In this document: positions 6,641-13,978 of the stretch, in pieces | Layout: each line of letters starts with the position of its first letter | Position numbering within the stretch: position 1 is the first letter of the stretch | DNA from: a bacterium | GTDB lineage: Bacteria; Planctomycetota; Planctomycetia; Planctomycetales; Planctomycetaceae | Length of the DNA: 64,000 bases | Assembly (NCBI GenBank): GCA_016125225.1 | Contig: WGME01000003.1 | Span: 992,001-1,056,000, forward strand | Direction of reading: 5' to 3' | Translations under genes and position numbers: made by a program | The notes under the pieces: generated by a model | Database searches by the model: none | What the model was told of the DNA's origin: nothing | What the model saw: the letters and a program-made list of their open reading frames with translations, nothing else

Positions 6641-7828
6641 TTGTCTCGACTGGGACCGTACTACGGTTATCACTTCAGGCATGGTCTTGTCGCAGAGTCG
6701 GGCACGATTCCAGGGGCTATTACGATTGAAATTCTGCTGTTTGTTCTCGGCTGCCTGCTCTCGGCGTTCTGGGTTTCGTTTCTGGGCGGATTCGCGATGC
6801 GCTGGCTGGCCCCGCGTTGGGGTTTGATTGATCACCCGGCCGCGCGCAAAGTCCATGTCACTCCAACCCCCTTGGGCGGGGGCATCGCCATCTGGTGTGG
6901 CGTGGTGGTTCCGCTCGTGGTCATGACGGCATTGCTGTGGGGCATGCCGCAGACCGTTGCGGCCTGGTTGCCCGGTTCTCTGATGAACTATCTTCCCGGG
7001 GCGATGGAACGGTTACCGCAACTCTGGGCCGTCATCGGGGCCGCATCGGTCCTGGCATGCCTGGGACTGTGCGACGACTTCCGTCCCATCGCCTGGCAAC
7101 CCCGTCTGGCCGTGCAGATTTTGAGTGCAACCCTCGTGGTCTGCTGCGGTGTGCGGGCCAGTTTCTTCGTGGAGAGTGCCCTGATCGGCGGTGTCGTCAC
7201 GGTGGCCTGGTTCGTGGTTCTGGTGAACTCTTTCAACTTTCTTGACAACATGGACGGTCTGTCCGGCGGTATTGCTCTGATCGTCAGCTGCATTTTCGCA
7301 GTCATGATGCTGGGAGCCCCCGGTGAACCCCGCTGGTTGGTTGCGGGTTTCTTCCTGTTGCTCGCCGGTGCGCTATTGGGATTTCTGCTGCATAACTGGT
7401 CACCCGCTCGCATTTTCATGGGAGACTCCGGCAGCTATTTCATTGGCTTTTCCATCGCCGCGATGACCGTGCTCGGCACGTTTTATTCGCCCGAAGTCGG
7501 CCATCAGCACGTGATACTCGCTCCGTTGTGCGTACTTGCGGTGCCCCTGTACGACATTTGCTCGGTAGTCTGGATTCGATTGCGCGAAGGTCGTAGCCCA
7601 TTTCAACCCGATAAACGACATTTCTCGCATCGGCTGGTCGCCATGGGATTTCATAAGGTGACCGCAGTATTGACGGTGCATCTGGCGACATTCACCACTG
7701 GCCTGGGTGGTCTGGCCCTCTATGTCGTTCCGAGTTGGACGGCCGCCATGATTCCGGTGGCGATGGTCGTTTGTGTGATTCTGATGATCGCCATTCTGGA
7801 ACAATCGCCCGGACCGGGGGCACCGTAA
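6641..7828 (+). CDS. MraY/WecA-family undecaprenyl-phosphate sugar-1-phosphate transferase
   Basis: An integral membrane enzyme (395 residues from TTG 6641) that by family moves a sugar-1-phosphate from a UDP-sugar to undecaprenyl phosphate, the first step of a surface glycan. Diagnostic motifs are present: HPAARKVHVTPTPLGGG near residue 65, NFLDNMDGLSGG (about 198-209), FMGDSGSYF (about 258), and PFQPDKRHFSHRL (about 325), the HxH-type loop typical of WecA/TagO rather than MraY. About ten or eleven hydrophobic helices are visible. The start is uncertain. TTG 6641 is the only standard start near the N-terminus, but homologous sequence seems to begin near TIEILLF (about 6721), where AGGGG (about 6711-6715) sits upstream of possible ATT starts. 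Its stop overlaps the ATG of the ligase-type gene by one base (TAATG), so the pair is an operon. Confidence 0.9.
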   Translation: MSRLGPYYGYHFRHGLVAESGTIPGAITIEILLFVLGCLLSAFWVSFLGGFAMRWLAPRWGLIDHPAARKVHVTPTPLGGGIAIWCGVVVPLVVMTALLWGMPQTVAAWLPGSLMNYLPGAMERLPQLWAVIGAASVLACLGLCDDFRPIAWQPRLAVQILSATLVVCCGVRASFFVESALIGGVVTVAWFVVLVNSFNFLDNMDGLSGGIALIVSCIFAVMMLGAPGEPRWLVAGFFLLLAGALLGFLLHNWSPARIFMGDSGSYFIGFSIAAMTVLGTFYSPEVGHQHVILAPLCVLAVPLYDICSVVWIRLREGRSPFQPDKRHFSHRLVAMGFHKVTAVLTVHLATFTTGLGGLALYVVPSWTAAMIPVAMVVCVILMIAILEQSPGPGAP

Positions 7829-10167
7829 TGCATCGGTCGGCGACTACCACGGCATCGTCCATGGTCGACAGCGATGGTTCAGTCCCTGCCTGGGTGCTGG
7901 GTGTGGCGGTGGGTCTGCTGGTCACCATCTGGTTGATTCCCCCCGAAGCCGCTATGGACGGGGAAACGAGTTGGCGGGCCATCGCCTGGCTGGTGCTGGC
8001 TAGTCTCTTCGCGGGTCAGCAGACCTTGCGTCGCACTGTCATTGATGTATCGGCCCCACGTGGGAACTGGTTCGACCTGGCGATCGGTCTGGTGATTGCC
8101 GGGCAATTGCTCGGCGCCATGCAGGTCTGGCTGATCGGCGGGCAGAAGCGTTCGGCTGCGAACTTGGCCATCGAATGGCTGGGGTTAGCGGCCGCGTGGT
8201 GGGTGCTGCGACGCATCGGGCATCACCCCGATTTTCGCCGGGCAATCGCACCGCTGATGATCAGCGCCGCCTCGGCCGCCGCAGTGTTGGGGCTTTGGCA
8301 GCACTATGTCGCCTTGCCAGAAATGGCCCGTGAATTCGGTCCCAAGATCGCCGAAGTCCGCGCGGCGATGGCTGAGGGCATCGGGACACCTGCCTTTCGG
8401 GAACTGGCAGCCGCTGGCATTCCCACCGCCGAACCAGGGCTCGGCATGTTTGAACGGCGGCTCTTGTCCAGCCAGGAACCGTTTGCCCTGTTTGGTCTGG
8501 CGAATACACTGGCTGGTCTGCTGGCTTCCGCCATGCTGTGGCTATTCTGTGGGTTGATGCCGGCACAACGGAGTGATTGGCGGTGGAAGTCCCATGCCCC
8601 CTCGTTACTGCTCCTGTTGTTGATGGCCTGGTGTCTGATTCTGACCAAAAGTCGCACTGCCTTGATTGGTGTGGTGCTGGGGATGGTCTGCTGGTCGACA
8701 CTGCGACTGCTGGGGCCATTGTCGGCCCGTTCGTTCTCACGGTGGGGCTTGTCGTTGGTCGGGTTATGTGTCGCGGTCGTCTTGTTGCCGTGGCTCCTCA
8801 CTAAAATTGGCGTGTGGGATGGGCAGGTGCTGTCGGAAGCACCAAAGTCGCTCACTTACCGCTTGCAATACTGGTCCGCGACCATGCAACTGATCCGGGA
8901 GCATCCCTGGCTCGGGGTGGGCTTGGGGCAATTTCGTCAACATTATCTCCGCGTCAAATGGCCCGCCGCGAGTGAAGAAATCTCCGATCCGCATAACCTG
9001 TGGTGCGATGCCTGGGTGAATGGGGGCTGCGTATCGGTACTGGGACTGTTGCTGGCGTGTCTGGCAACGCTTTTCTGTGTTCGTTGGCTCAGCAGTTCTG
9101 CCGCTTTCAATCCTGAAGTCTCAGGAGCAGAAAAACCTGTAGAACGTTCCAACGCCTCGACCGGAACTATCGTAGTCGTCGGTGGGATGCTGGCAACTCC
9201 GTTGTGGTTGTTCGTACAAGCCTATGGCGGGGCCTGGGATGATCGTTTGCTCGCGATGGGAGTCTTGATCCCTGTCTTCTTCTGGATTCTGAGCCGTAGC
9301 CCGGTATTGGAGATGCCGCCTGCGACACAGGGCTGGTGTGCCGTTTGGGCCTTGGTGCCGTTGTTCGTTCATTTGCATGGAGCCGGGGGATTTGAAATGT
9401 CCGGCGTGGGTCTGTGGGCAGAATTGTTGCTGGTCGTGGCAATGTCCGCAGGGGCCACGATTCCTCCGGGGGCGAGCCAGGTTGTGCCCGAAACGCCTGC
9501 ATCGACTAATCCCTGGCCTGACTGTGTGGCCGCATGTGGCATGTTGGGTGTGACTTCGGCGGTCATTGTGGGGCTCTGGCTGCCCGATGTTCGCTGCCGC
9601 CAGGCGCTCGATGAAACCTTTACGTTGAGTAGCCGACAGCCGGAATCAGCGAAATCGGCATTGCTACGGGCCGCCGCCGCAGATGACTGGAACCCTACGC
9701 CGTGGGGGCAACTCGGCGATCTGGCCCGTCAGTCGGCATTGCAGCAACAGTCGGCACGTGAACCGCAAGCCCGCGTACTGGACGAGTTGCATCAGGCCGA
9801 CGAATTCTTTCAGGCCCTGCAACGGCGCGATCCGTATAATCCCCACGGTTGGGTGAATCGGGCAGAAATCGCAGCCTTGGCTCACTCTGTCAGTCATAAT
9901 CCGCACGATTTGTCAGCCGCCGTCGATGCCTGGGCACAAGCCGTTGCGATGTACCCGACCAATGCGGCATACTTGACGCAGTGGGCCTTCGCTGCCGAAA
10001 AGGCGGGGGCAACCGAAACCGCGTTGGCTGCCGCACAACGGGCGCTGCAACAAGACCAGTTGAACCATGATTTATGGCACTTGGAACGCTGGCTGCCGGA
10101 AATCGAACATGATCGACTGGAATCACTGGTGCGACGTCACGAAGGCGGTCACCCTCCAGAGAATTGA
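7828..10167 (+). CDS. O-antigen ligase (Wzy_C/WaaL)-type membrane protein with TPR tail
   Basis: ATG 7828 overlaps the stop of the transferase gene (TAATG). The frame is open further upstream to 7735, but that part lies inside the neighbour. The product (779 residues) has a dozen or so hydrophobic helices over residues 20-560. A periplasmic loop carries SLTYRLQYWSATMQLIREHPWLGVGLGQF (spanning about 340-370) followed by DPHNLW, the hallmark of the Wzy_C/O-antigen ligase family, where the arginine and histidine act in glycan transfer or polymerisation. The last 170 residues are helical TPR-like repeats (for example NPHGWVNRAEIAAL and AYLTQWAFAAEKAGATETALAAAQRAL), a fusion common in planctomycete and verrucomicrobial members. 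With the WecA-like enzyme it probably builds or attaches a surface polysaccharide. Polymerase versus ligase cannot be told apart from sequence. Confidence 0.85.
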   Translation: MHRSATTTASSMVDSDGSVPAWVLGVAVGLLVTIWLIPPEAAMDGETSWRAIAWLVLASLFAGQQTLRRTVIDVSAPRGNWFDLAIGLVIAGQLLGAMQVWLIGGQKRSAANLAIEWLGLAAAWWVLRRIGHHPDFRRAIAPLMISAASAAAVLGLWQHYVALPEMAREFGPKIAEVRAAMAEGIGTPAFRELAAAGIPTAEPGLGMFERRLLSSQEPFALFGLANTLAGLLASAMLWLFCGLMPAQRSDWRWKSHAPSLLLLLLMAWCLILTKSRTALIGVVLGMVCWSTLRLLGPLSARSFSRWGLSLVGLCVAVVLLPWLLTKIGVWDGQVLSEAPKSLTYRLQYWSATMQLIREHPWLGVGLGQFRQHYLRVKWPAASEEISDPHNLWCDAWVNGGCVSVLGLLLACLATLFCVRWLSSSAAFNPEVSGAEKPVERSNASTGTIVVVGGMLATPLWLFVQAYGGAWDDRLLAMGVLIPVFFWILSRSPVLEMPPATQGWCAVWALVPLFVHLHGAGGFEMSGVGLWAELLLVVAMSAGATIPPGASQVVPETPASTNPWPDCVAACGMLGVTSAVIVGLWLPDVRCRQALDETFTLSSRQPESAKSALLRAAAADDWNPTPWGQLGDLARQSALQQQSAREPQARVLDELHQADEFFQALQRRDPYNPHGWVNRAEIAALAHSVSHNPHDLSAAVDAWAQAVAMYPTNAAYLTQWAFAAEKAGATETALAAAQRALQQDQLNHDLWHLERWLPEIEHDRLESLVRRHEGGHPPEN

Positions 10168-10293: not shown

Positions 10294-11427
10294 ATGCGAC
10301 CAACAGGAGTGATACTGGCTGTTGTCTTTGGGTTTCTGGCGCTCGCCGTCACCGTGTGGATTGGCCGTTACGACGCCAAGCCACCGATGATCGCGGCGAA
10401 ACCGGCCGACCCCTACGAAGATTTGCCCGTGAACGAAAACGGACCGCATCCCAATGCTGTCGCCGAAGTTTCCGAATTCAACTTTGGCACCATGGCCGTC
10501 GGCAATTCCGGCGAGCACGTCTTCACCATCAAGAACGAAGGGGAAGGCGACCTGATGCTGAAGAAGGGCAGCTCCACTTGCTCCTGCACCGTGGGCGAAC
10601 TCTCGAACGATTCCAAGATCGCTCCGGGAGAATCGGTCGAGGTAAAGCTTAACTGGAAGATTAAGGCAATGACCGAAGTCTTCCGTCATTCAGCTTCCGT
10701 ACTCACCAATGACCCGGAGCATCGGGAAATTCAATTCGTCGTCACCGGCAAAGTTGATGAACCGTTGAAACTCAAACCGGCGACATGGGAAGTCGGTGAG
10801 CTTTCAACCGATGTGGCCGTGATGAAGGGCACCATTTTCTCTCCCGTCGATGATCAGTTCGACATTAAGAACATCGTCATGAAGGCCGACTGGGTGAAGA
10901 TTGAAAGCACGCCGATGACGGAAGAGGAATTGAAAGAGTATTCCGCCAAATCGGGCTACATTCTGACGGGGACCATCAGCCCCACGATGCCGATTGGCCC
11001 TTTCTTTACCGATGTGGCCGTGGAAACCACGCATCCTCTCGGTGGTACCTTGAACTTTCGCATCAACGGTATGCGTCCTGGTCCTTTGGAGATGTTCGGC
11101 CCCAGCTTCCGACCTGAAGCCAACGCGCTGATTTTGGGGGAATTCGCCGCCAAGGACGGTAAGTCGGCCACGATTTCGGTCTTCGCCCGCGACCTTGAGA
11201 CCGACCTGGAGTTGGAAGGGGCAGAAACCGAACACAATTCGGTGAAGGTCGAACTGGTGAAGGATGAACGCCTCACCGGCAAAGCCAAGCGCTACCTCTT
11301 GAAGATTGAAATTCCTCCCGGCGAACCGCAAGATCGCATGCGCAAGAAGTCCGAGAAGATCAATCTCAAATTCAATCATCCCGAAGCCAAGGAAGTTCGC
11401 CTGATTGTCGAATTTCTTGCCGTCTGA
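10294..11427 (+). CDS. DUF1573 domain exported protein
   Basis: A 377-residue protein with an N-terminal hydrophobic helix (VILAVVFGFLALAVTVWIG, residues 5-23), either an uncleaved signal anchor or a signal peptide. DUF1573 follows at about 60-150: FNFGTMAVGNSGEHVFTIKN, a Cys-containing turn STCSCTVGEL, then IAPGESVEVKLNW, the pattern of an Ig-like beta-sandwich. A second similar beta-rich half follows. The role of the family is unknown; members are envelope proteins in Bacteroidetes and PVC bacteria. The gene lies 47 bases before the tetrahaem lipoprotein gene on the same strand, and the two are probably co-transcribed. ATG 10294 has AGGG at suitable spacing; a 126-base gap separates it from the ligase-type gene. 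Confidence 0.85.
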   Translation: MRPTGVILAVVFGFLALAVTVWIGRYDAKPPMIAAKPADPYEDLPVNENGPHPNAVAEVSEFNFGTMAVGNSGEHVFTIKNEGEGDLMLKKGSSTCSCTVGELSNDSKIAPGESVEVKLNWKIKAMTEVFRHSASVLTNDPEHREIQFVVTGKVDEPLKLKPATWEVGELSTDVAVMKGTIFSPVDDQFDIKNIVMKADWVKIESTPMTEEELKEYSAKSGYILTGTISPTMPIGPFFTDVAVETTHPLGGTLNFRINGMRPGPLEMFGPSFRPEANALILGEFAAKDGKSATISVFARDLETDLELEGAETEHNSVKVELVKDERLTGKAKRYLLKIEIPPGEPQDRMRKKSEKINLKFNHPEAKEVRLIVEFLAV

Positions 11428-11474
11428 GCAGGCTTCGGAAGCATGGCCAAGACGGCCACAGAAGGATCGTTGTG

Positions 11475-13067
11475 ATGACGAATGCTGCACGGACGCCGCT
11501 CTCAAGGTCTCTTGGACGCCCGCATCGGACATCTTCTCGGATCGGTGTTGGTCTCCTGATCGCTGCGAGTGTCTTGAACTACGGATGCGGCTCGAATTCC
11601 GGTTCCGGCACATCCAGTTCAAAAGAGGCACCACCTGCAGAAGAAGTCTATGTTCGCCCCTTGTTGAAAGACTGGGAACCACCCGCCGTGGCCTTGGCAC
11701 TGTCGGGGGAACTGCATGGCTACCTGGAACCGTGCGGGTGTTCTCTCACGCAGTCGGGCGGGCTGGAACGCCGCGGCGATCTGTTTCGACAGCTTTCCGA
11801 AAAGGGATGGAACGTTGTTCCGCTCGATGCCGGTGATTTGCTTAAGCGTTCCCGTCGACAGGATCAGATCAAGTTTGAAGCCATTCTCGGGGGCTTGAAG
11901 CAACTCGGGTACTCGACGATTGGCACAGGGGAAAGCGAACTGCGACTTTCTGCCGATTACCTTGTCAGCCAGTTTGCGGGCGAGGGAATTCCACTCGCGG
12001 GGATGTTAACCAGCGCGAATGTCACCCTGTTTGATGCGCCGGATCTCGGCGTGCCCGTTCCCTGGCGCGTGATCCAAGCCGGTGACATGAAAGTCGGTGT
12101 GATTGCCCTTCTGGGAAAAAGTGCCGCCGACGAAGTCGCGCCCGAGGGGGTGGAAAACTTCATCACCATTCAACCGGCTGTCGACGCGCTGCGGGCCACG
12201 CTGCCGGTGGTCCAGGCCGAAAAGCCCGACGTGTTGCTGGTCATGTCAAATGGAAGCCTCGATGAAGCCCAGGCGTTAGCCAAGGAATTCCCCGAACTAC
12301 CACTGATCCTGGCGGGTGGCGGACCCGAAGACCCCGGCGACCAACCGAAAAAGATCGGCAACACGCTCATCCTGGAAACGGGGCACAAAGGGAAGTACGT
12401 CGGCATTCTGGGCTATTATCCCGGAGATGCTGACCCCTATCGTTGGGAACTCGTGAATCTCGACAATCGCCGTTTTCATGGCGACGAGCCCATGCATCAG
12501 GTGATGAAATCGTATCAACAGCAACTCCAGGAACTCGAACTGGCCAAGTCTCCTGAACTGGTCATCAGCCATCCTTCGGGGACCACGTTTGTCGGGGCGA
12601 AAACCTGTGGCGAATGCCACGCCAAGGCCTATTCCAAGTGGAAAGGGACGAAGCACGCCGCCGCGTTCGAAAGTCTCGCTCGTGGTCGCAAAGGGCAGGA
12701 AGCGAACTGGGTCTCGCGGATCTATGACCCCGAATGCCTGTGCTGCCACGTGACAGGCTGGGACCCGCGCGAAGTCCGCCGATTTGATTCCGGATACATC
12801 GATCAGGAAACCACCGCCCATCTGGCTGGTCAGCAGTGCGAAAACTGTCACGGCCCGGGCCAGGCTCACATCGATCTGGAACGGCAGTACCGCCAGGACC
12901 TGAAAAGTGTGACACAGGAATCGCTGACAGCCGCCCGTACCGCACTCAAGCTCAACTACAAGGAAGCCGAGTTGAAGGTCTGCTCGAAGTGCCACGACGA
13001 TGAAAACAGTCCCGGTTTCAAATTTGAAAAGTACTGGGACGAAGTGAAACACCCCTGGAAAGATTGA
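11475..13067 (+). CDS. Lipoprotein: degenerate 5'-nucleotidase-like domain plus tetrahaem cytochrome c
   Basis: ATG 11475 sits 8 bases after GAAGGA; an adjacent GTG at 11472 is possible. The N-terminus has a lipobox (LNYGC, Cys about residue 37), so the protein is probably lipid-anchored. Residues about 70-330 follow the 5'-nucleotidase/metallophosphoesterase outline (GELHGYLEP, SGGLERR, LDAGDLL, GYSTIGTGESE, LAGGGPED). However, the metal ligands of NDxHG, GNHE and GGHxH are mostly replaced (GELHG, GESE, GGGPED), so phosphoesterase activity is unlikely. The C-terminal part has four CxxCH haem-c sites at residues 378 (CGECH), 421 (CLCCH), 455 (CENCH) and 503 (CSKCH), in a spacing like cytochrome c554-type multihaem proteins. 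By family it would transfer electrons in the periplasm or envelope. Neighbours: DUF1573 upstream, DUF971 18 bases downstream. Confidence 0.85.
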   Translation: MTNAARTPLSRSLGRPHRTSSRIGVGLLIAASVLNYGCGSNSGSGTSSSKEAPPAEEVYVRPLLKDWEPPAVALALSGELHGYLEPCGCSLTQSGGLERRGDLFRQLSEKGWNVVPLDAGDLLKRSRRQDQIKFEAILGGLKQLGYSTIGTGESELRLSADYLVSQFAGEGIPLAGMLTSANVTLFDAPDLGVPVPWRVIQAGDMKVGVIALLGKSAADEVAPEGVENFITIQPAVDALRATLPVVQAEKPDVLLVMSNGSLDEAQALAKEFPELPLILAGGGPEDPGDQPKKIGNTLILETGHKGKYVGILGYYPGDADPYRWELVNLDNRRFHGDEPMHQVMKSYQQQLQELELAKSPELVISHPSGTTFVGAKTCGECHAKAYSKWKGTKHAAAFESLARGRKGQEANWVSRIYDPECLCCHVTGWDPREVRRFDSGYIDQETTAHLAGQQCENCHGPGQAHIDLERQYRQDLKSVTQESLTAARTALKLNYKEAELKVCSKCHDDENSPGFKFEKYWDEVKHPWKD

Positions 13068-13085: not shown

Positions 13086-13391
13086 ATGACCACCTTGGCT
13101 CCGCAAACCATCCGGGTTGTTAAAGAACAACAGACGCTCGAAATCGTCTGGCCCGATGTGGGGACCTTGCCGATTCCGTTCTTCGAACTGCGCTGCGGTT
13201 GCCCGTGTGCTGTCTGTGTCGACGAAATTACCGGACGGCCTTTGTTGAAGCGCGACACCGTTCCCGCCGACATTCATCCGCGCGGCATCGGCTTTGTTGG
13301 CAACTATGCCATTCGAGTCGACTGGAGTGACGGACACTCCACCGGCATTTTTACCTGGGAGCGACTGCGCGAACTGGGACAACCCCAATGA
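13086..13391 (+). CDS. DUF971 domain protein
   Basis: A 101-residue protein that is essentially one DUF971 domain (also the N-terminal domain of gamma-butyrobetaine hydroxylases). Visible marks are RCGCPCAVCVDEITG (about 36-50), with the C-x-C-x2-C cysteine group, then RGIGFVGNYAIRVDWSDGHSTGIF and WERLREL at the end. The domain is found near iron-sulphur and Mrp-type proteins and probably binds a metal, but no reaction is established for the stand-alone form. It starts 18 bases after the tetrahaem cytochrome gene and its stop overlaps the next ATG (ATGA, 13388-13391), so it is in the same transcript. Confidence 0.88.
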   Translation: MTTLAPQTIRVVKEQQTLEIVWPDVGTLPIPFFELRCGCPCAVCVDEITGRPLLKRDTVPADIHPRGIGFVGNYAIRVDWSDGHSTGIFTWERLRELGQPQ

Positions 13392-13978
13392 CGGCCGTGA
13401 CTCCCTATGAAGTGGAAATCAAGTATCGTGTCGGCAACGCTGCGGAGTTGCGGCAAGCCCTCTCGTCGCTGGGTGTCGAACTGGGCCCCGTCGAGTTACA
13501 GGTCGACCAGTTTTATCAGCATCCTTCGCGAAATTTTGTCCAAACCGATGAAGCCCTGCGGCTGCGGACCATCGGTGATCAGACCGTGCTGACCTACAAA
13601 GGTCCGGTGGTCGATCGGCGCACGAAAACGCGACAGGAACTGGAAGTCCTCTTGGAGCCGGGCCACGCTTCGGCAGTGACGATGTCGCTGATCTTAACGC
13701 AACTGGGCTTTCCGGCGGTTCGTGAAGTCCGTAAGGAACGTCGCTCTGGTTCGTTGAACTGGCAAGATCACCAGGTGATCTGCTGCTGGGATGAAGTGCC
13801 GGGCATCGGGACGTTCGTCGAATTTGAAATCGTCACTGATGGCCACGGCCGAACCGCGGCACAGGACATCATTCTCTCGCTCGCGGCCCATTGCGGACTG
13901 ACGGTGCAGGAACAGCGTTCGTATCTGCAGATGAACCTGGACCGTGACCGGGAATTCACCAGCGTCGAACCGGGTTAA
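13388..13978 (+). CDS. cyaB: CYTH domain protein, class IV adenylate cyclase / triphosphatase type
   Basis: A 196-residue CYTH (triphosphate tunnel) protein. The signature ExExK is at residues 8-12 (EVEIK), followed by Arg-containing strands that line the tunnel: EALRLRTIGDQTVLTYKGP (about 55-73) and TRQELEVLL (about 80-88). The C-terminal half has VREVRKERRSGSLN and FVEFEIV. Length matches CyaB-like class IV adenylate cyclases and short-chain inorganic triphosphatases; sequence alone does not decide between cAMP synthesis and triphosphate hydrolysis. The protein is cytoplasmic. Its ATG overlaps the DUF971 stop. Its stop overlaps by four bases the stop of the convergent small membrane protein gene. 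Confidence 0.88.
   Translation: MTAVTPYEVEIKYRVGNAAELRQALSSLGVELGPVELQVDQFYQHPSRNFVQTDEALRLRTIGDQTVLTYKGPVVDRRTKTRQELEVLLEPGHASAVTMSLILTQLGFPAVREVRKERRSGSLNWQDHQVICCWDEVPGIGTFVEFEIVTDGHGRTAAQDIILSLAAHCGLTVQEQRSYLQMNLDRDREFTSVEPG

Follow-up and report, generated by a model that had tools for sequence, protein, structure and literature searches.

The window, i.e., the whole stretch of 64,000 nucleotides analyzed here, comes from a member of the Planctomycetaceae and harbors an intact open reading frame encoding a protein of 530 amino acids (P0001), for which a GTG at 11472 offers an alternative start. Following a signal sequence, the protein comprises a domain of the 5'-nucleotidase/SoxB fold, with a Cys-Gly-Cys motif in its former metal loop, and a tetraheme domain of the cytochrome c554 type; the features of the locus are collected in Table 1. 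The first-pass annotation of this DNA described the protein as a lipoprotein. A lipobox-like end of the signal sequence is indeed present, but it is atypical at position −3, and such a site was found, with a loose pattern, in only 32 of the 82 scored homologs. The lipid anchor appears to vary across the family and to be no constant feature of it; P0001 itself is a secreted protein and probably lipid-anchored.

Table 1. Features of the P0001 locus (positions in the window).
Feature	Position	Strand	Remark
Glycosyl transferase family 4 (WecA-like) gene	6641..7828	+	neighbor in 30/95 loci
O-antigen ligase-like (Wzy_C) gene	7735..10167	+	neighbor in 39/95 loci
DUF1573 protein, N-terminal helix and beta-rich Ig-like domains (predicted)	10294..11427	+	upstream neighbor, proposed partner
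C96-S-C98 of the DUF1573 protein	10579..10587	+	first position Sec (UGC) in some planctomycete paralogs
P0001 at full length (530 aa): CGC-bearing pseudo-metallophosphoesterase domain and tetraheme cytochrome c554-type domain	11475..13067	+	
Signal sequence, lipobox-like end VLNYGC38	11475..11588	+	N at −3 atypical
5'-nucleotidase/SoxB-fold domain, residues about 70–358	11682..12548	+	
GELHG (78–82), altered NDxHG metal motif	11706..11720	+	69-row alignment
C87-G-C89, proposed redox dithiol	11733..11741	+	second position Sec in some relatives
GESE (152–155), altered GNHE motif	11928..11939	+	69-row alignment
GGGPED (about 281–286), altered GGHxH motif	12315..12332	+	69-row alignment
Cytochrome c554-type domain, residues about 371–526	12585..13052	+	H394, H465, H526 candidate distal ligands
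Heme site 1, CGECH (378–382)	12606..12620	+	
Heme site 2, CLCCH (421–425)	12735..12749	+	
Heme site 3, CENCH (455–459)	12837..12851	+	
Heme site 4, CSKCH (503–507)	12981..12995	+	
GBBH-like_N gene	13086..13391		closely downstream
CYTH gene	13388..13978		closely downstream; four-base overlap with the GBBH-like_N gene

According to the AlphaFold model of P0001 (mean pLDDT 90.4, pTM 0.85; input alignment of 69 sequences), the N-terminal domain is a metallophosphoesterase fold. Its best structural match is 2z1a (Z 29.1, rmsd 2.9, 284 residues aligned), the SoxB structures give Z of about 27, and the 5'-nucleotidases equal SoxB or surpass it as a fold match. The 5'-nucleotidase outline formerly read from the sequence is thus borne out by the model, and an unrelated fold was not seen. 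In the Pfam scan of P0001, the metallophosphoesterase model was absent from the matches, and so was the 5'-nucleotidase C-terminal domain. P0001 shares its N-terminal fold with SoxB (2wdc, 4uwq) and the 5'-nucleotidases (UshA, 2z1a, CD73), but their metal ligands are not kept in it, and its C-terminal part is a cytochrome.

The altered metal motifs named in the first-pass annotation were located in the protein, and its suspicion that the metal site is gone agrees with the alignment of 69 homologs. Columns 79, 81, 121, and 259, together with the GNHE and GGHxH motifs, are what we take to be the classical ligand positions, with roles as in UshA. Column 79 is occupied by E in 26, Q in 12, and D in 9 of the 69 homologs; H is present at column 81 in 23/69 and at column 259 in 30/69; column 121 holds D in 11/69 and G in 33/69, and the GNHE and GGHxH motifs are not kept. 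In contrast, four proteins of the nucleotidase type that lack CxxCH and came out of the same phylum search (L025, L026, L030, L031) retain NDxHG, GD, GNH[ED], and GGHxH; their corresponding loop has no CxC, though L025 and L031 have one elsewhere. Since the ligand columns vary while these heme-less controls keep their motifs, the known metal site is apparently not under selection in this family. Inspection of the individual ligands showed that E79, H81, and D121, mostly replaced in the homologs, are still present in P0001, which nevertheless lacks the two-metal ligand set of 5'-nucleotidase/UshA. In view of the ligand columns of the 69 homologs and the four intact controls without CxxCH, an active nucleotidase was rejected.

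The motif overlooked in the first-pass annotation is C87-G-C89, with C87 standing five residues past the glycine that ends the altered NDxHG motif. C-x-C or C-x-U occurs in 80/80 related loci, viz. PCGC in 71, PCGU in four, VCGC in two, and ACGC, SCGC, and PCNC in one each. These loci were collected by patterns of the cytochrome half, with a mild bias from a query alignment built from PCGC proteins; the 69-row alignment was pre-filtered for CGC, so its 69/69 at C87 and C89 is by selection, and 80/80 is the unfiltered figure. In the four PCGU loci, the second position is selenocysteine (Sec), encoded by an in-frame TGA; three of them are titled Krumholzibacteria (L130, L132, L135), and the fourth (L145) clusters with these in the tree. 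Furthermore, tandem planctomycete loci (L016, L017, L020, L021) combine an upstream CGU copy with a downstream CGC copy, both bearing four heme sites; the TGA at the motif was read in 4 of ten tandem genomes (G015, G083, G163, G117).

A SelA match was found in all ten chosen genomes having a TGA-bearing copy and in none of the four chosen genomes of Planctomycetaceae, including that of P0001 itself (G000), where codon 89 encodes Cys and not Sec. Elsewhere in the family, the TGA reported for G212 is an ordinary stop, and two draft contigs carry an internal TAA (G216) and a TGA inside the fourth heme motif (G209). A structural disulfide is rarely swapped for selenocysteine, and Cys/Sec exchange usually marks redox catalysis. 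The presence of CxC in all 80 loci, taken together with the Cys/Sec exchange in relatives, points to redox chemistry in the loop of the former active site. R99, R100, and K133 are also near-invariant among the homologs. At four loci (L169, L172, L173, L174), the pairs of Sec and Cys copies lie directly 3' of an ECF sigma factor-like ORF and a small cysteine-bearing protein, as judged by reading the sequence.

The cytochrome half matches Pfam Cytochrome_C554 (PF13435) at residues 377–460 with 57.5 bits, well above the cut-off of 20.8. All four CxxCH sites proposed earlier are present, and every C and H of these sites is unchanged in 69/69 aligned homologs. Equally invariant (69/69) are H394, H465, and H526, candidate distal ligands that would serve three of the four hemes. 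Cytochrome c554 has one five-coordinate heme, i.e., a heme without a fixed distal ligand, and this pattern is compatible with the three fixed extra histidines of P0001. The similarity to c554 (1bvb, PF13435), in the CxxCH pattern as well as in sequence, extends over residues 371–509; c554 is, however, a free protein, whereas its counterpart in P0001 is fused to a phosphoesterase fold. In two relatives (L010 and L013, with frames of 945 and 848 aa, respectively), TPR repeats are fused C-terminally of the cytochrome domain.

The protein type is common in planctomycetes. A search for the fusion, as advised in the first-pass annotation, gave matches with E values of 1e-20 or lower in 57 of the 61 Planctomycetaceae genomes, mostly one per genome; 56 of these are close homologs (P0001 included, the others being 39–59% identical to it), and the 57th, in G209, is distant at 31%. 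In the phylum search, the figure of 138/199 genomes is an upper bound, taking in cytochrome-only and nucleotidase-type matches. In a quick tree with weak deep forks, P0001 groups with other Planctomycetaceae-type proteins. Two loci titled Candidatus Kuenenia stuttgartiensis (L096, L104) group with Pirellulales-type planctomycetes, and these record names look doubtful.

Among the named families, the best NCBIfam match of P0001 is NF041198, the UshA-like (seleno)protein, whose model covers both halves of P0001 (model positions 27–264 and 353–519 of 519). P0001 scores 215.2 bits vs. the cut-off of 275; four relatives exceed the cut-off (L122 with 282.7, L016 with 303.8, L130 with 275.7, and L010 with 303.6 bits), and L137 and L138 are below it. 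P0001 has the same two domains as this family, and it also possesses the C-x-U/C motif, as PCGC; the selenoprotein has Sec at this point (PCGU, as in relatives), and P0001 has Cys. At a score below the cut-off, P0001 is thus a cysteine-form relative and not a filed member of NF041198, and since the model spans both domains, the fusion architecture is already that of a named family. Overall, P0001 represents a widely distributed variant of the cysteine form, close to a family already listed among the selenoproteins.

The “UshA-like” selenoprotein with its CxU motif appears in published listings (PMC9312934, PMC13188914, PMC2398784), and an ocean survey lists 76 Sec and 92 Cys forms of it. The passages of these three papers in which the family is listed make no mention of a heme domain, gene neighbors, or a function. 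A separate selenoprotein entry, Cytochrome_C554, is given in the list of PMC9312934 and called ExtKL in that of PMC13188914. Among the titles and abstracts searched, covering few subscription papers, none dealt with the heme fusion, the role of the heme domain, or a link to DUF1573, and no assigned function was found in this literature for the UshA-like or DUF1573 selenoprotein families. The earlier interpretation thus stands in part: P0001 is indeed a little-described protein with a probable role in electron transfer, and a purely binding or sensing role has less support. The architecture is not new, being spanned by NF041198 and included in a selenoprotein review.

The gene neighborhood is conserved as well. 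Across 95 loci, the commonest neighbor is a DUF1573 gene, at 54/95 by greedy gene calls, which missed some DUF1573 genes masked by antisense ORFs. A six-frame recount placed DUF1573 at most 3 kb upstream in 62 of the 86 loci having at least 1.5 kb of sequence and found no upstream match in the other 24 (L157 and L158, duplicates of L070 and L119, are still counted within both the 95 and the 86). DUF1573 also adjoins distant members in Scalindua, Brocadiaceae, and one contig titled Armatimonadetes. The aligned DUF1573 neighbors, 58 in number, include 55 with CxC, one with CxxC (L093), and two partial frames without that region; the upstream DUF1573 match of L110 has neither CxC nor CxxC. The upstream neighbor of P0001, a separate protein, belongs to this family (PF07610) and has CSC at the motif. 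In the structure search with this neighbor, the 50 matches listed comprised Ig-like, cadherin, and ciliary central-apparatus chains, with no lead to a carrier protein.

DUF1573 is itself among the selenoprotein families, with the motif UGC, in the lists of PMC9312934 and PMC13188914. In the tandem-group planctomycetes, U-G-C was found at the motif in 6 of the 8 TGA-bearing DUF1573 copies retrieved, the other two being without a pattern match; in the tandem Sec genomes, DUF1573 is not adjacent to the UshA-like pair. At four loci (L179, L180, L182, L183), DUF1573 copies stand side by side, U-G-C occurring in one and C-G-C in the other; this resembles the Sec/Cys pairing seen for the UshA-like gene.

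On the downstream side, GBBH-like_N is the +1 neighbor in 9 of the 51 scanned cases, and a thioredoxin-family domain was found in 6 of the 51. Judged by CxxC, the thioredoxin-family +1 neighbors belong to L125, L128, L131, L138, L141, and L144, three of them scanned singly; the five such loci present in the tree form one clade. A thioredoxin-like tail is fused to the protein in L137 and, by sequence reading only, in L142. In L138, L144, L141, L128, and L125, the gene directly upstream of the CxC gene encodes a protein containing four consecutive cysteines (GCCCCGG); this protein is found in the clade with the downstream thioredoxin gene, and in L138, the sole one scanned, it has a DUF4159 match.

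The reading preferred here, to which we give about an even chance, is that P0001 transfers electrons outside the cytoplasm, a CGC dithiol/disulfide in its old metal loop being coupled to four hemes, with the DUF1573 protein as the likely partner. The metallophosphoesterase fold would have lost its two-metal center and would now carry a redox-active Cys-Gly-Cys in the loop after the first strand. The four hemes of the c554-type domain would accept or donate electrons singly, and the two-electron thiol/disulfide chemistry of CGC would thereby be coupled to the cytochrome chain. The natural partner would most likely be the upstream DUF1573 protein with its own CxC, which a thioredoxin-like protein may replace in some other members. 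Against the dithiol part of this reading, metal binding by CxC could equally be the case; against the partnership, the conservation of DUF1573 may just reflect stable gene order, and the WecA-like and Wzy_C neighbors are uninformative about thiols. The 24 loci with no upstream DUF1573 match, the two matches devoid of CxC (L093, L110), and the separate location of DUF1573 in the tandem Sec genomes likewise count against it.

Several alternatives have to be weighed. SoxB acts on SoxYZ, and in a comparable chemistry the domain would handle an oxidized sulfur group that the Ig-like DUF1573 protein bears on one of its cysteines, while the hemes take the electrons. In line with this, SoxB is the best for P0001 of the NCBIfam phosphoesterase models except UshA-like (E 3e-9 vs. 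1.6e-4 for UshA) and outscores the nucleotidase models in 6/6 relatives scanned; the SoxB structures match the model of P0001, and the DUF1573 protein is predicted to be beta-rich and Ig-like. Still, the score with the SoxB model TIGR04486 (35.7 bits vs. the cut-off of 550) is so low that SoxB membership is ruled out, the SoxB metal site is lost, and 5'-nucleotidases fit the fold equally or better. In addition, a SoxY match was found in 0/31 family genomes, though no control genome gave a match either. On balance, SoxB-like chemistry seems rather unlikely.

The proposal of the first-pass annotation, a dead enzyme domain that binds or senses a ligand and modulates the cytochrome, would make the CxC structural. 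It is consistent with the lost metal ligands and with the ECF sigma factor-like ORF and small CxxC protein read upstream of some tandem loci; nevertheless, the ubiquity of CxC and the Cys/Sec exchange favor redox chemistry over a structural disulfide, and this makes the proposal improbable in our view. A further option is a novel metal site within the pseudo-active site, built from CxC and residues close to it and holding, e.g., copper or zinc. Soft metals can be ligated by CxC motifs, and the near-invariant R99, R100, and K133 make a liganded pocket plausible, but the inspected old ligand columns offer no further invariant Cys, His, Asp, or Glu, and redox chemistry fits the Cys/Sec exchange better, so we regard such a site as distinctly improbable. 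That the phosphoesterase is still active with substituted ligands, the hemes serving another purpose, is very improbable: E79, H81, and D121 of P0001 could hold one metal, yet they are replaced in most homologs, while CxC is found in 80/80 loci.

Returning to the dithiol-to-heme reading, the direction of electron flow is a matter of guesswork; we lean slightly towards thiol oxidation with electrons passing to the cytochromes, given that searches of the genome of P0001 for DsbA, DsbB, and VKOR found none of the three. Among the 31 family genomes, VKOR was found in 10 and DsbB in 3, and the DsbA result (0/1) refers to this one genome. DsbB or VKOR is present in 9 of the 27 genomes with an orthologue of P0001 vs. 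3 of the 4 that lack a close orthologue (G205, G209, G211, G213); this difference is not significant (Fisher one-sided p about 0.15, calculated by hand), and the complementarity across genomes is suggestive only. A bolder and rather doubtful extension is that DUF1573 (CxC/UxC) and the PCGC/PCGU-tetraheme protein make up an unrecognized extracytoplasmic two-protein dithiol-to-heme relay replacing DsbA/DsbB or VKOR where these are absent. Such a relay, with representatives in Planctomycetota and one or more Armatimonadetes genomes, would pass thiol electrons straight into c-type cytochromes.

These findings bear on disulfide formation, if any, in a planctomycete without a match to DsbA, DsbB, or VKOR. 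More broadly, two catalogued selenoprotein families, UshA-like and DUF1573, have conserved neighboring genes, and one of them bears hemes. This provides a testable hypothesis for both, i.e., that thiol/selenol chemistry may be directly coupled to multiheme cytochromes outside the cytoplasm.
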